Made by a program: the position numbers and the translations under genes. 57,912 bases of DNA from Actinosynnema sp. ALI-1.44. Lineage in GTDB: Bacteria > Actinomycetota > Actinomycetes > Mycobacteriales > Pseudonocardiaceae. Location of the stretch: NCBI RefSeq assembly GCF_001984155.1, contig NZ_MTQO01000020.1, forward strand, positions 1 through 57,912, given 5' to 3'. Below the pieces are notes generated by a model. That model was not told the DNA's origin and ran no database searches. It was given only the letters and a program-made list of their open reading frames with translations. Of the stretch, positions 47,965 through 57,912 are shown in pieces (the first letter of the stretch is position 1; the number at the start of each line of letters is the position of its first letter).

Positions 47965-48110
47965 TCCTCGCCCCGTGACGCAGGTATCGACGGCGCAGGG
48001 GTGTCTGGCTCCCGTGCCCGTCAGACGGGCCCGGTGACAGTGGCGGGACCGCGCCGGACTCGCACCGGCTTCCCCACTACGTCGTCGTTCGAGCCGACCC
48101 TACCTGGTCA
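47965..48110 (-). ncRNA. Cobalamin riboswitch controlling cobN
   Basis: On the minus strand the leader has the B12 core: GGGGAAGCCGGTGCGAGTC (P3-P4 region, around 48055-48075), GGTCCCGCCACTGT (around 48036-48050) and the B12-box GAGCCAGACACC near 47998-48011, in the right order and spacing. After the aptamer, CACGGGGCGAGGACCCC forms a hairpin and the ribosome-binding site GGGGGAG follows at once, so regulation is probably by blocking translation initiation. It lies 16 nt to 160 nt before the cobN start. Boundaries are approximate. Confidence 0.93.
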
Positions 48111-48261
48111 CCGGGTCCCGCCAAGACGCCCGGACGGCTGGTTCGAACGTGCGGAACGTCACTGCACATCACAGACAGGTCACGCCTCGTCCGGCGGCGG
48201 AACCGGACACCGGCGGCGAACCTCTCATGCCCGCACACGAGAGAACACCGGGAGGCGACTG

Positions 48262-54672: not shown

Positions 54673-55409
54673 CGCGTGCGGTTGACGGAGTAGAGGTGGC
54701 TGTCGATGAACTCGGTCGCGGACAGCACCTGCCCGACGATGATCACAGCGGTCCGCTTGATCCCCGCGTCGTGGACCTGCGCGGCGATGTCGGTGAGTGT
54801 TCCGCGCAGGATGACCTCGTCCGCGCGGCTGGCGTAGGCGACGACCGCGACCGGGCAGTCAGGACCGTAGCTGGGCAGGAGGTCCGCGACGACCTCGTCG
54901 ATCCGTTGCACAGCGAGGTGCAGAACCATTGTGGACCGAGCGCGGCCAAGGGCGGCCAGGTCCTCTCCGGGCGGCATCGGCGTTGCACGCGCGGCGGTCC
55001 GTGTAAGGACAACCGTTTGGGCGAGCCCAGGGACAGTCAGCTCACGCTTCAAGGCCGCCGCCGCGGCGGCGAAAGCGGGGACACCAGGCGTCACGTCATA
55101 GGGAACACCGGCGGCATCAAGCCTGCGCATCTGTTCGGCCATCGCGCTGTACACCGACGGATCACCCGAGTGGAGGCGCGAGACGTCCAGCCCACCAGCG
55201 TGCGCGTCAACCAGCTCGGCAGTGATCTCGTCCAGATTCAGGTTGGCGGTGTCCACAAGCCTCGCACCGGCCGGGCACATCTCCAACAACTCGACCGGCA
55301 CGAGCGCGCCCGCGTAGAGGCACACGGGCGATGACGCGATCAGTCGCTGCCCCCGCACAGTGATCAGGTCCGCCGCACCCGGTCCTGCGCCGATGAAGTG
55401 CACGGTCAC
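54669..55409 (-). CDS. cobM: Precorrin-4 C11-methyltransferase
   Basis: A 246-residue class III methyltransferase. The start is GTG 55409 (MTVHFIGAGPGAADLITVRG), coupled to the cobL stop by a GTGA overlap; the open frame extends upstream to 55619 but only as a shadow of cobL. Motifs are the N-terminal GAGPGA loop, VCLYAGALVP, LHSGDPSVYSAMAEQM and TPGVPAFAAAAAAL. It methylates C-11 of precorrin-4 to give precorrin-5. The protein is of normal length. Confidence 0.96.
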   Translation of the reverse strand: MTVHFIGAGPGAADLITVRGQRLIASSPVCLYAGALVPVELLEMCPAGARLVDTANLNLDEITAELVDAHAGGLDVSRLHSGDPSVYSAMAEQMRRLDAAGVPYDVTPGVPAFAAAAAALKRELTVPGLAQTVVLTRTAARATPMPPGEDLAALGRARSTMVLHLAVQRIDEVVADLLPSYGPDCPVAVVAYASRADEVILRGTLTDIAAQVHDAGIKRTAVIIVGQVLSATEFIDSHLYSVNRTR

Positions 55410-56581
55410 GCGTCGATCTCCTTGCTGACGGTCCAGATGGTGACCGGCATCAGCGGGCGCCAGCCGGTGAACCCGCCGACCGGGGAGCCCCGGCTGACCG
55501 AGATCCGGACCAGGTCGCCGCCGAGCCGGGCGTGCCATCGTGCCACGACGGCCTCGGATTCCACAGTGACGGCGTTCACCACCAACCGCCCGCCGGGGCG
55601 CAGCGCAGCGAGTGCCCACTCGACCATGCCGTCGGCTGTCAGACCACCGCCGATGAAGACCGCGTCCGGCGTCGCCAACCCGTCGACCGGCGCCTGCGCG
55701 ACCACCACCTCAACCCCAGGAACACCCAGCTCCCGCGCATTACGCCCAATCCGCCCAGCCCGAGTGGGGTCACGCTCGACGGCGATCGCCCGGCACGACG
55801 GATGCACCCGTGACCACTCGATCGCAATGCTGCCCGCGCCCCCACCGACATCCCACAGCAGCTGCCCGGGAACAGGCATCAGCCGTGACAACGTGACCGC
55901 ACGGACCTCACGCTTGGTGAGCTGGCCGTCGCTTTCGTAGGCCTCATCAGGCAGCCCCGGCACAGCGGACAACACCTCGTCGCCCCGACACTCGATGGCG
56001 ATGACGTTCAACGGCCGAGAAGGGCCTTGCCACTGGTCAGCGGTCCCCGTGACCTGGTTCTCCCCCTCGCCACCCAACTCTTCGAGCACAGTCATCACGC
56101 TGGCGCCGTAACCCCGCTTGGTCAGCAACGCAGCGACTTTCCCAGGCGTACCACCGTCGGCACTCAAGACGATGAGTCGCCTCGCCGGATGCACCTGGGC
56201 GTTGACCAGCTCGACAGGGCGACCGACGACACTGATGACCTCGATATCCTGCTGCGCCCAGCCCAGACGCGCGCAGGCGAGCTGCACAGACGACGGATGC
56301 GTCAGGACACGGACCGGACCGAGCTTGGAGCCGATGCCGTAGAACATCGGATCCCCACTGGCCAGAACACAGAGGACCCGGTCCTGGTACTTCGCCAGCA
56401 AACCGGGAACAGCAGGCATCATCGGCGACGGCCAAGCCACCCGCTCAGCCGTGACCACCTCGGGTAGGAGATCGAGCTGGCGCTTGCCGCCCAGCACCAC
56501 CTCAGCCTGGCTCAAGGCTCGCCGAGCCACGGCGGTGAGACCGTCCCAACCTTCTGCGCCGATGCCAACAACTGTGACCAT
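55406..56581 (-). CDS. cobL: Precorrin-6Y C5,15-methyltransferase (decarboxylating)
   Basis: A 391-residue bifunctional enzyme starting at ATG 56581 (MVTVVGIGAEGWDGL), which is fixed by a leaderless -10 box. The CbiE half (about 1-190) has the class III loop GIGAEGWDGL, LASGDPMFYGIGS and TVLEELGG; the CbiT half (about 220-391) is a class I methyltransferase with LLWDVGGGAGSIAIEWSR, AVERDPTRA and DAVFIGGG. It methylates C-5 and C-15 and decarboxylates the C-12 acetate. It is the first gene of the cobL-cobM-cobK operon. Confidence 0.96.
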   Translation of the reverse strand: MVTVVGIGAEGWDGLTAVARRALSQAEVVLGGKRQLDLLPEVVTAERVAWPSPMMPAVPGLLAKYQDRVLCVLASGDPMFYGIGSKLGPVRVLTHPSSVQLACARLGWAQQDIEVISVVGRPVELVNAQVHPARRLIVLSADGGTPGKVAALLTKRGYGASVMTVLEELGGEGENQVTGTADQWQGPSRPLNVIAIECRGDEVLSAVPGLPDEAYESDGQLTKREVRAVTLSRLMPVPGQLLWDVGGGAGSIAIEWSRVHPSCRAIAVERDPTRAGRIGRNARELGVPGVEVVVAQAPVDGLATPDAVFIGGGLTADGMVEWALAALRPGGRLVVNAVTVESEAVVARWHARLGGDLVRISVSRGSPVGGFTGWRPLMPVTIWTVSKEIDA

Positions 56582-56587
56582 TCGACC

Positions 56588-56593
56588 AACGTA
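56588..56593 (-). promoter_or_regulatory. -10 element TACGTT, leaderless promoter of cobL-cobM-cobK
   Basis: On the minus strand TACGTT ends 6 nt before ATG 56581. No cobalamin riboswitch is visible upstream of this operon, unlike cobN. Confidence 0.5.
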
Positions 56594-56719
56594 GAACATC
56601 GCAGGTCAGCACAACGAACCGGCGTGCAGCCATAGCCGGAACGATGATCAAGCCCCCAGCATGGGCCGCGAGGATGCAACCGCAGACAGGATTGGCCAGC
56701 GCGACTCAACCACTGCCAG

Positions 56720-56821
56720 GCTCGCACGCCAGCGCAGGGCAGGCGGCCCTGCGCGCCAGCGCCGGGGGTTTGCGGCCCTGCGCGCCAGCGCAGAAGTTTG
56801 TGGCTTGCGCGCTAGCGCAGA
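56720..56821 (+). repeat. GC-rich ~30-bp degenerate direct repeats, left arm
   Basis: The word TGCGCGCCAGCGC recurs with about 29-bp spacing (56749, 56778 and, diverged, 56807), separated by GGGTTTGCGGCC-like spacers. In one frame it encodes repeated LRASA, but with no start, so it is treated as DNA repeat. Confidence 0.7.
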
Positions 56822-56835
56822 GTGGTGCTTCGGGG

Positions 56836-56976
56836 GTGTCTCCTGCCCGTCGGCCTGGGCGAAGCCAACCACGGTCTGTCCAGAGGTCGGCCCACGACAA
56901 CCAGCGCCAGCGACAGCGGTACCGATCCTCTTGATAGACCGTGGTTCCCTGGGGCAGGTCGACGGGCAGGGGACAC
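56836..56976 (+). mobile_element. MITE-like palindromic element, copy A
   Basis: About 141 bp with imperfect terminal inverted repeats of about 45 bp: 56836-56880 (GTGTCTCCTGCCCGTCGGCC...) against 56933-56976, flanking about 52 bp. It encodes no protein. A second copy lies in opposite orientation at about 57315-57455. Mobility is inferred from structure only; no transposase or certain target-site duplication is seen. Confidence 0.6.
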
Positions 56977-57071
56977 CCGCGCCCTGAAACCCCGGGTCAT
57001 AAAAGCATGCGCCGGGAGCAACACGACGCGAAGACCTCCTGCTCAGAGGTCTGCCTCCCGGCGAGGGACCC

Positions 57072-57142
57072 CGTCTTTGTCTTTTCGTCTTTGTCTTTTC
57101 GTCTTTGTCTTTTCGTCTTTGTCTTTTCGTCTTTTCGTCTTT
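57072..57142 (+). repeat. 14-bp tandem repeat CGTCTTTGTCTTTT
   Basis: Four exact copies (57072, 57086, 57100, 57114) followed by CGTCTTTT and CGTCTTT. The tract is pyrimidine-rich on the plus strand, contrasting with the GC-rich surroundings, and lies on one side of the palindrome axis with no mirror partner. Confidence 0.95.
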
Positions 57143-57150
57143 CAAACCCG

Positions 57151-57206
57151 GGATCTCCATTGCGGGTCTGGTGACCACGCCTACTCCTGGTCAACACTGG
57201 AGATCC
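57151..57206. repeat. Small inverted repeat next to the palindrome axis
   Basis: GGATCTCCA at 57151-57159 is mirrored by TGGAGATCC at 57198-57206; its centre (57178.5) is offset from the main axis, so it belongs to a separate insertion or fold. Confidence 0.7.
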
Positions 57207-57314
57207 TGCGGGGGAAAGATAGCCCCTCGCCGGGTGGCAGACCTCCAAGCAGGAGATGGGATGGGTGTACTCCCTGCCCAAAGCCATGATCCTGTTGTGT
57301 GTATCCGAGGCGAG

Positions 57315-57455
57315 GGCGCCTCCTGCCCGTCGACCTGCCCCAGGGAACCACGGTCTATCAAGAGGATCGGTATGGCTGTCGCTGGGGCTCTTCGGGTAGG
57401 CCGACCTCTTGACAGCCCGTGGTTGGCTTCGCCCAGGCCGACGGGCAGGAGACAC
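57315..57455 (-). mobile_element. MITE-like palindromic element, copy B (inverted)
   Basis: The mirror of copy A, with the terminal blocks nearly identical and the middle (around 57375-57400) diverged. The greater divergence of the loops than the ends suggests that stem pairing is maintained. Confidence 0.6.
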
Positions 57456-57469
57456 CCCCGAAGCCCACC

Positions 57470-57640
57470 CCTGCGCTTGCGCGCGAGCCGCAAACCCTGC
57501 GCTTGCGCGCACGCCGCCTGCATAGCGCATGCTCGCGAACCGTTGCGGGTTGCTCTGCCCTGGCGCCCGGCCGCAAACCCCCCGTGCTTGCGCGCGAACT
57601 CGGCGGGGCTGGGTCGCACTTGCGTGCGAGCCGCCTGCCC
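57470..57640 (-). repeat. GC-rich degenerate direct repeats, right arm
   Basis: CTGCGCTTGCGCGC and variants (57471, 57497, about 57586) are reverse complements of the left-arm words, again separated by GCCGCAAACC-like spacers. They extend irregularly toward the sucD stop. Confidence 0.65.
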
Positions 57641-57781: not shown

Positions 57782-57912
57782 TTACACGCTGCTGGTCGCC
57801 GTAACGGCCCTGGCCAGAGCCGCGGTCTCGCTCGGCGTTCTGCCGACCTTCACGCCCGCCGCCTCAAGGGCTTCCTTCTTCGCCGACGCCGTACCCGCCG
57901 AACCGGAGACGA
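57782..57912 (-). CDS. sucD: Succinyl-CoA synthetase, alpha subunit, C-terminal end (cut by window edge)
   Basis: On the minus strand a frame enters from the right edge and ends at TAA (57782-57784). Its last 42 residues read VSGSAGTASAKKEAL, then EAAGVKVGRTPSETAALAR and a short tail. This is the characteristic C-terminus of SucD (GTAxAKKEALEAAGVKVG-x-TPSE), the CoA-binding subunit of the TCA-cycle ligase. The rest of the gene and the usual upstream sucC lie outside the window. Its transcript would run into the palindromic region before cobL. Confidence 0.9.
   Translation of the reverse strand, partial: VSGSAGTASAKKEALEAAGVKVGRTPSETAALARAVTATSSV

Follow-up and report, generated by a model that had tools for sequence, protein, structure and literature searches.

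REP and BIME sequences are short palindromes of a few tens of nucleotides that occur in bacterial genomes in many copies. Retroregulation by lambda sib involves RNase III and attP, and sti of pIJ101 is the single-strand origin of a rolling-circle element. The default maximum palindrome in the REP-finding program RepRanger is 32 nt (PMC12306157), the terminator T1 near one end of the ICE Tn916 is described as insulating that element from host transcription (PMC11658703), and sib is described as a downstream element that lowers int mRNA (PMC5300877).

The locus considered here lies in a 57,912-nt stretch of the Actinosynnema sp. ALI-1.44 genome (hereafter the window), where a palindrome of several hundred bp separates sucD from cobL. 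From its sequence and that of its relatives, we consider this palindrome to consist probably of two copies, head to head, of a mobile RNA module that is strand-specific and acts at transcript 3' ends, where it would terminate transcription. Below we document how many copies of the module exist, their covariation and strand bias, where they lie relative to gene 3' ends, the empty sites of relatives and the occurrence of the module on conjugative elements.

Architecture of the sucD–cobL palindrome

The palindrome is flanked by a cobL-type gene with matches to CbiE and CbiT domains (55406–56599, − strand) and by the 3' end of sucD (57782–57912, − strand, stop at 57782), which is cut by the contig end. 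The sucD match (Succinate--CoA ligase alpha, E 3.9e-7 over 41 residues) falls under the whole-protein cut-off because only a fragment is present. A codon-usage gene caller placed no gene in the palindrome stretch, in agreement with the first-pass annotation, which had seen no credible gene there. Elsewhere in the window, among cobalamin genes, a cobalamin riboswitch (RF00174, 45.9 bits, above the gathering score) occupies 47981–48118 on the − strand.

That annotation had also described perfect inverted blocks of 48, 51 and 9 bp sharing one axis near 57146. The two long blocks were recovered, a 51-bp run at 56920–56970/57322–57372 (axis 57146.0) and a 48-bp run at 56827–56874/57417–57464 (axis 57145.5). 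Shorter blocks do share this axis (57145.5–57146), but they were found as three further perfect inverted runs of 11 bp and one of 10 bp rather than as a 9-bp block. Extended complementarity between the arms spans 100 nt at 90%, 81 nt at 91% and 32 nt at 91%, and each arm is, as had been proposed, itself palindromic (inverted pairs I5, I6 and I12, together with the folds).

The window palindrome is two head-to-head copies of one strongly conserved, RNA-like hairpin unit, of which the hairpin (U) and a downstream segment (V) can be recognized in both arms. The left U, a hairpin of ~160 nt with a four-way junction, is read left to right at 56823–56984 (+); its covariance-model match scores 150.5 bits on the + strand against 59.0 bits on the opposite strand, and it folds at −103.1 kcal/mol on + versus −94.0 on −. 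The left V starts with a near-copy of the U 5' arm (57035–57055, +) that can pair with the U 3' arm, judging from its sequence and from a V5'–U3' pairing test across 42 loci, and continues with the mini-hairpin TCCC[GGCGA]GGGA (57056–57068, +), whose stem varies across loci with pairing kept. Next to it is the 14-bp tandem repeat D1 (CGTCTTTGTCTTTT; 57072–57141, +), located where the first reading had placed it beside the axis, which we read from its sequence as a putative expansion of the T-rich tail of the left V. The middle segment between the units (57142–57223, no strand assigned) carries a small inverted repeat, I10, and has related counterparts in other paired copies. On the other side, the survey of mini-hairpins identified the right V mini-hairpin CCC[GGCGA]GGG (57224–57234, −), and V-to-U similarity and pairing tests identified the right V first part, again a near-copy of the U 5' arm (57235–57256, −). 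The right U (57308–57468, −) is read right to left, with a covariance-model score of 157.7 bits on − and 61.5 bits on +. This right arm adjoins sucD, and sucD transcription would read its U from outer to inner end.

That the two arms together form one long palindrome seems to be a side effect of two near-identical units standing head to head; the pairing that has been preserved in evolution, as covariation reveals, is that within each arm. At least four loci of the same genome (L151, L153, L156 and L172) join arms from two different subfamilies. The palindrome is not a chance arrangement, since ~40 similar places exist in the same genome. The GC-rich repeats that the first reading had noticed outside the arms are REP-like and comprise three matches to the 14-mer TGCGCGCNAGCGCA outside the left arm (56750–56819) and two at the outer end of the right arm (57472–57511); these are five of the six matches at ≤1 mismatch in the window, where 0.42 were expected. 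This small REP-like palindrome, directly outside the arms here, is also found beside many other copies.

A dispersed, strand-specific hairpin family

The repeating unit is ~265 bp long and consists of the ~160-nt hairpin U, a linker and then segment V; some units stand alone, and others form inverted pairs separated by a middle of ~100–160 bp. Besides the ~40 own-genome places similar to the window palindrome, further places were added when the second arm type served as query, and 39 stretches with their flanks were taken for comparison. A covariance model built from 33 native hairpins of seven same-genus genomes detected 57 full-length U copies at ≥140 bits in the own genome, where opposite-strand matches score ~50–78 bits. 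For placement, 59 matches were counted (the 57 full-length copies, one weaker and one partial), which fall at 41 loci, 18 with a pair and 23 with a single unit. A complete same-genus genome, G002 (11,759,770 bp, single contig), holds 52 U copies at 40 loci, as 12 pairs and 28 single units; these are 52 of 90 listed matches, with opposite-strand matches and an overlapping 84-bit match (11187491) dropped and a 72-bit match (1509789) retained. Some own-genome pairs look single because they are contig-end fragments. Eight contigs of this genome (C12, C26, C34, C35, C36, C38, C46 and C51) start or end in or near copies; the family therefore interrupts the assembly, and the copies counted in the own genome are a minimum. 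Model matches were present in all seven of the other same-genus genomes examined, though only weakly in G006. In G002, whose dnaA lies at the contig end, none of the 40 loci falls between 2.95 and 7.56 Mb; a truncated copy at 4.35 Mb sits inside this otherwise copy-free region.

The pairing of U is under selection, as the first-pass annotation had suspected: in the 33-hairpin alignment, both sides of 22 of the 41 consensus pairs have changed in a compensatory way, and the stems of different subfamilies differ strongly in sequence yet still pair. In many single-sequence folds, mini-hairpins flank both sides of the four-way junction. When the strand is read from outer to inner end, imperfect consensus pairs are G·T in 102 cases and A·C in 9. 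This bias persists (89 versus 7) in folds with G·U forbidden and hence is not made by the folding rule. The corresponding counts for 22 loci from other genomes are 44 and 5, although the U strand was model-chosen there, which may favor G·T, whereas in the own genome it was fixed by sequence homology. Furthermore, comparison of the two strands favors that of U at 30 of 32 genus loci and at 17 of the 22 from other genomes, the opposite strand folding better in the remaining two and five, respectively. The G·T bias and the better folding of the U strand together point to a single folded strand, either RNA or single-stranded DNA, and not to a double-stranded cruciform.

Segment V, downstream of U, comprises the near-copy of the U 5' arm, the GGCGA-loop mini-hairpin and then a T-rich tail. 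The mini-hairpin with its GGCGA pentaloop was recognized in 42 of 54 loci, and some of the other 12 hold a longer stem or a V copy missed by the rule. Its third pair is CG in 27 loci, TA in 9, GC in 5 and TG in 1, and its fourth is GC in 23, TA in 4, CG in 3, TG in 2 and AT in 1. The tail comprises 39% T, 34% C, 14% A and 14% G across the 42 loci. In an ungapped test, V resembled the U 5' arm at p ≤0.05 in 15 of 54 loci. Pairing was assessed in the 42 loci remaining after the 12 without a recognized mini-hairpin were dropped: the U 3' arm pairs with its own V at a mean of −37.6 kcal/mol and with V from other loci at −30.9 kcal/mol, a result matched by none of 5000 permutations in a test that is inflated by related loci. 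The cognate V ranked first in 10 of the 42 loci and beyond fifteenth in 9. With the U 5' arm blocked in silico, the U3'–V helix forms, in a whole fold that is 18–43 kcal/mol weaker (15 loci); such a deficit suggests that V can compete with the U 5' arm for the 3' arm but should lose at equilibrium. A standard-pattern terminator scan of the window element returned two sites where 0.6 (sd 0.8) were expected, one of them at 57060–57081, overlapping the left V; this simple scan gave no terminator-like site at the right V.

Placement relative to genes was evaluated in the own genome and G002 with the codon-usage gene caller, for which the window served as training sequence. U lies downstream of the 3' end of its outer neighbor in 84 of 109 units (binomial p 1.2e-8), as expected of an intrinsic terminator, while 25 of 109 units do not follow such an end. 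Single units considered alone gave 11 of 17 in the own genome and 20 of 27 in G002. Of 74 element gaps, 35 are convergent and 5 divergent, compared with 13 and 54, respectively, of the 128 other gaps of ≥100 bp from the same sequence stretches.

Empty sites and conjugative elements

The sucD–cobL copy is lineage-specific. The gap between the two genes is ~1.2 kb here versus 55–150 bp in six of seven relatives (G001, G002, G003, G004, G006 and G007); in the seventh, G005, no sucD adjacent to cobL was found. Clear palindromic hairpins can be read in the short gaps of G001, G003 and G007, and no clear terminator hairpin was read in those of G002 and G006. The 106-bp gap of G002 (L258) contains TTCCGGCGAGGGACC, which resembles a V mini-hairpin without U and may be due to chance. 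At another own-genome locus, L146, the gap of ~835 bp corresponds to gaps of 60, 57, 186 and 56 bp in G001, G002, G003 and G004, and short GC-rich terminator-like hairpins are readable in all four. At L171, the gap of G001 measures 99 bp and contains a perfect CTCGTGAGT hairpin; in G002 the locus is rearranged, and no adjacent left flank was found in G003 or G004. A different palindrome, CTCGTGAGT...ACTCACGAG, occurs in the gaps of several empty sites (L259, L261, L263 and L316, from G001, G003 and G007) and may represent another dispersed terminator-like family.

Few positions are shared between the own genome and G002. For eight of 46 own loci both flanks correspond to those of a G002 locus; L153 and L185, separated by a contig break, jointly correspond to one more, and for L163 and L172 the correspondence is one-sided. 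At the eight shared loci the flanks are 85–95% identical, and the own arms tested best match other own arms (91–98%) rather than the arm at the orthologous locus (72–93%), so homogenization or repeated insertion is ongoing. The first-pass annotation had offered mobile insertions in opposite orientation and a very large structured RNA, with transcription entering from sucD, as separate possibilities. The former is supported by the many copies at unrelated loci and the empty orthologous sites, the latter by covarying stems, a fold on one strand and the suitable orientation of the arm beside sucD, and the two proposals hold together.

The family extends beyond the genus. With the best ≤19 candidates per genome scored, at least 37 of 150 relatives match the covariance model; 29 of these lie outside the genus, and 18 of the 29 have exactly one match on the same scoring. 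At the other extreme, G028 and G089, which belong to one common genus, have at least 19 matches each, and G039 has 13. In another family of the order, two loci (L217 and L231, from G039 and G120) have U-like hairpins without a recognized V.

Genes of AICE-type clusters are present at 11 of 20 loci fetched from outside the genus: FtsK/TraB-like genes at six, RepSA-like genes at six and integrase-like genes at eight, some of them fragments. Proteins of L241 and L242 matched RepSA, FtsK, integrase and GntR above Pfam cut-offs, with matches to the NCBIfam TraB and RepSA models below theirs, and members at the other loci were grouped by BLAST. Both the FtsK-like and the RepSA-like genes lie on the U strand in six of six loci. 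Att-like repeats flank U and the AICE genes in four of 15 loci tested (L241, at tRNA-Pro; L248, at tRNA-Gly; L257; and L242), with U ~130–1040 bp inside the element end. In L242 and L248, int is at the opposite end, followed by the repeat, and U is inside the other repeat; L244 has roughly this geometry, with no left repeat found. In such AICE-type loci a single U–V lies near the end opposite int, on the tra and rep strand.

The window copy has no rep, tra or int genes beside it, and the own genome gave no match to the L241 RepSA in a search run without a positive control. A U–V (58.4 bits) is also present on a Streptosporangium plasmid, where it follows a ParA operon at a distance of 217 bp and opposes a convergently oriented annotated gene. 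At L339 (NZ_CP109466.1), a gene for the hypothetical protein WP_329094282.1 (7986–8348, −), which is listed twice on the plasmid, overlaps V with its 3' end. Direct repeats of 31–32 bp, a CRISPR-like size, occur ~1.1–1.3 kb to the left and 4.6 kb to the right of U at L250 (G012). By BLAST, the window element matched nothing among plasmids or phages, and the AICE form (L241) matched one plasmid record and no phage. A class-wide model search of 394 genomes matched the own genome only, a weak negative because few candidates (the best seven) were scored per genome. An 18-mer scan for the arms returned 88 stretches from many phyla, as expected by chance, and the match at L055 lies in genes.

A putative module at transcript ends and its nearest analogs

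A termination module would fit the orientation of the units, their T-rich tails, the strand bias and the replacement of ordinary terminators. Transcription from the flanking gene would fold U and stop in or just after V, with termination occurring at the V mini-hairpin and T-rich tail once U has folded. A head-to-head pair would then serve as a bidirectional terminator or insulator between convergent genes, taking the place of ordinary terminators, and RNase III might in addition cleave the long duplex of U and so define where the mRNA ends. In an integrated AICE, host transcription would be blocked by the one copy close to the end that faces int across attP, whereas in the circular form U–V would lie downstream of int, and the int transcript would cross attP into U. 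Against termination, a 160-nt hairpin far exceeds what termination needs; against RNA, the G·T bias also fits single-stranded DNA.

The copies may alternatively be a selfish, giant REP/BIME- or MITE-like repeat, a DNA substrate of transposition or recombination for which the 3'-end placement reflects tolerated insertion only. Its lineage-specific copies, subfamilies of near-identical copies, arms closer to paralogs than to orthologous arms, avoidance of divergent gaps and adjoining REP-like 14-mers are all consistent with such a repeat. However, pairs that were compensated over long divergence and the conservation of V, with a covarying stem of its own, suggest that the structure has a function, and insertion elsewhere does not predict ordinary terminator-like hairpins in the empty sites; we therefore regard a purely selfish repeat as rather unlikely. 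Strand-specific folding and the position of AICE copies on the RepSA-like gene strand (in all six loci having such a gene) could also relate to a single-strand origin, or another single-stranded DNA signal of rolling-circle AICEs, that escaped into the chromosome, and sso sequences are described as being used by known ICEs (PMC4595007). For the AICE copies such an origin is possible, but as an account of the family it is improbable, given that chromosomal copies follow gene 3' ends, that V bears a T-rich tail and that copies sit where relatives hold terminator-like hairpins.

A chromosome-organizing or recombination site, also raised by the first-pass annotation, found no support beyond the bias away from the terminus half in the one complete genome (none of 40 loci in its copy-free region, with dnaA at the contig end). 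Even that region has a truncated copy, copy orientation follows the neighboring genes, no spacing or orientation common to the copies could be established along the chromosome and few loci are common to two same-genus genomes, all of which make this role very improbable. Several of the 54 contigs of the own genome have an end in or close to a copy, which could suggest an assembly artefact, but inverted pairs at 12 of 40 loci of the single-contig, 11.76-Mb G002 make this explanation extremely unlikely, as do the flank-consistent empty sites in relatives.

Beyond a termination module, we tentatively raise the bolder possibility that U–V represents a novel type of bistable RNA switch belonging to conjugative elements. 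Two partners would be available to the U 3' arm, namely the U 5' arm and V, both conserved in evolution in their complementarity to it; one fold would free V to end transcription and the other would tie V up. Excision and circularization would put int directly upstream, altering the fate of both the int transcript and host read-through. One large-genome actinobacterial genus would then have let the module replace ordinary terminators at dozens of gene ends.

The element had no Rfam match at the gathering score, the only such match in the whole window being the cobalamin riboswitch elsewhere, and under relaxed settings the element and the L241 copy matched VA RNA and microRNA families alone, all below threshold. 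No description of U–V was found in the open-access literature searched, and six structure terms were absent by word search from an AICE survey (PMC3218068). If the module acts as proposed, it would add to the structured RNAs a new family whose covariation is very strong and which links actinomycete conjugative elements to ordinary host transcript ends. As a mobile terminator replacing native ones, it would make terminator gain and replacement testable, along with the shielding of AICEs from host transcription. It would also offer a reason for the persistence of near-perfect palindromes of several hundred bp in a bacterial genome.

U–V is far longer than REP palindromes, and it agrees with the definition of a terminator in the testable part only. 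Like REP/BIME sequences, U is an intergenic palindrome present in many copies at gene ends, often as inverted pairs, but it is outside their size range at ~160 nt per hairpin and has a conserved V and tail. With rolling-circle single-strand origins (ssoA) it shares a strand-specific folded structure on an element of rolling-circle type; unlike ssoA or sti, it is dispersed at chromosomal gene ends and has a T-rich tail. The resemblance to lambda sib would lie in a long hairpin across attP from int and on the int strand (the geometry of L242, L248 and, roughly, L244), although U–V is much larger, carries V and is also dispersed at host genes. Like T1 of Tn916, U–V lies near one end of a conjugative element, which it may by analogy insulate; T1 is an ordinary intrinsic terminator, whereas U–V is a large conserved fold and a putative terminator. 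In position, orientation, GC-rich mini-hairpin and T-rich tail, U–V is similar to bidirectional intrinsic (Rho-independent) terminators between convergent genes, and short terminator-like hairpins fill the same gap in relatives. What distinguishes it from intrinsic terminators is a ~160-nt four-way-junction hairpin with a competing copy of its 5' arm, in a unit that is repeated and mobile.
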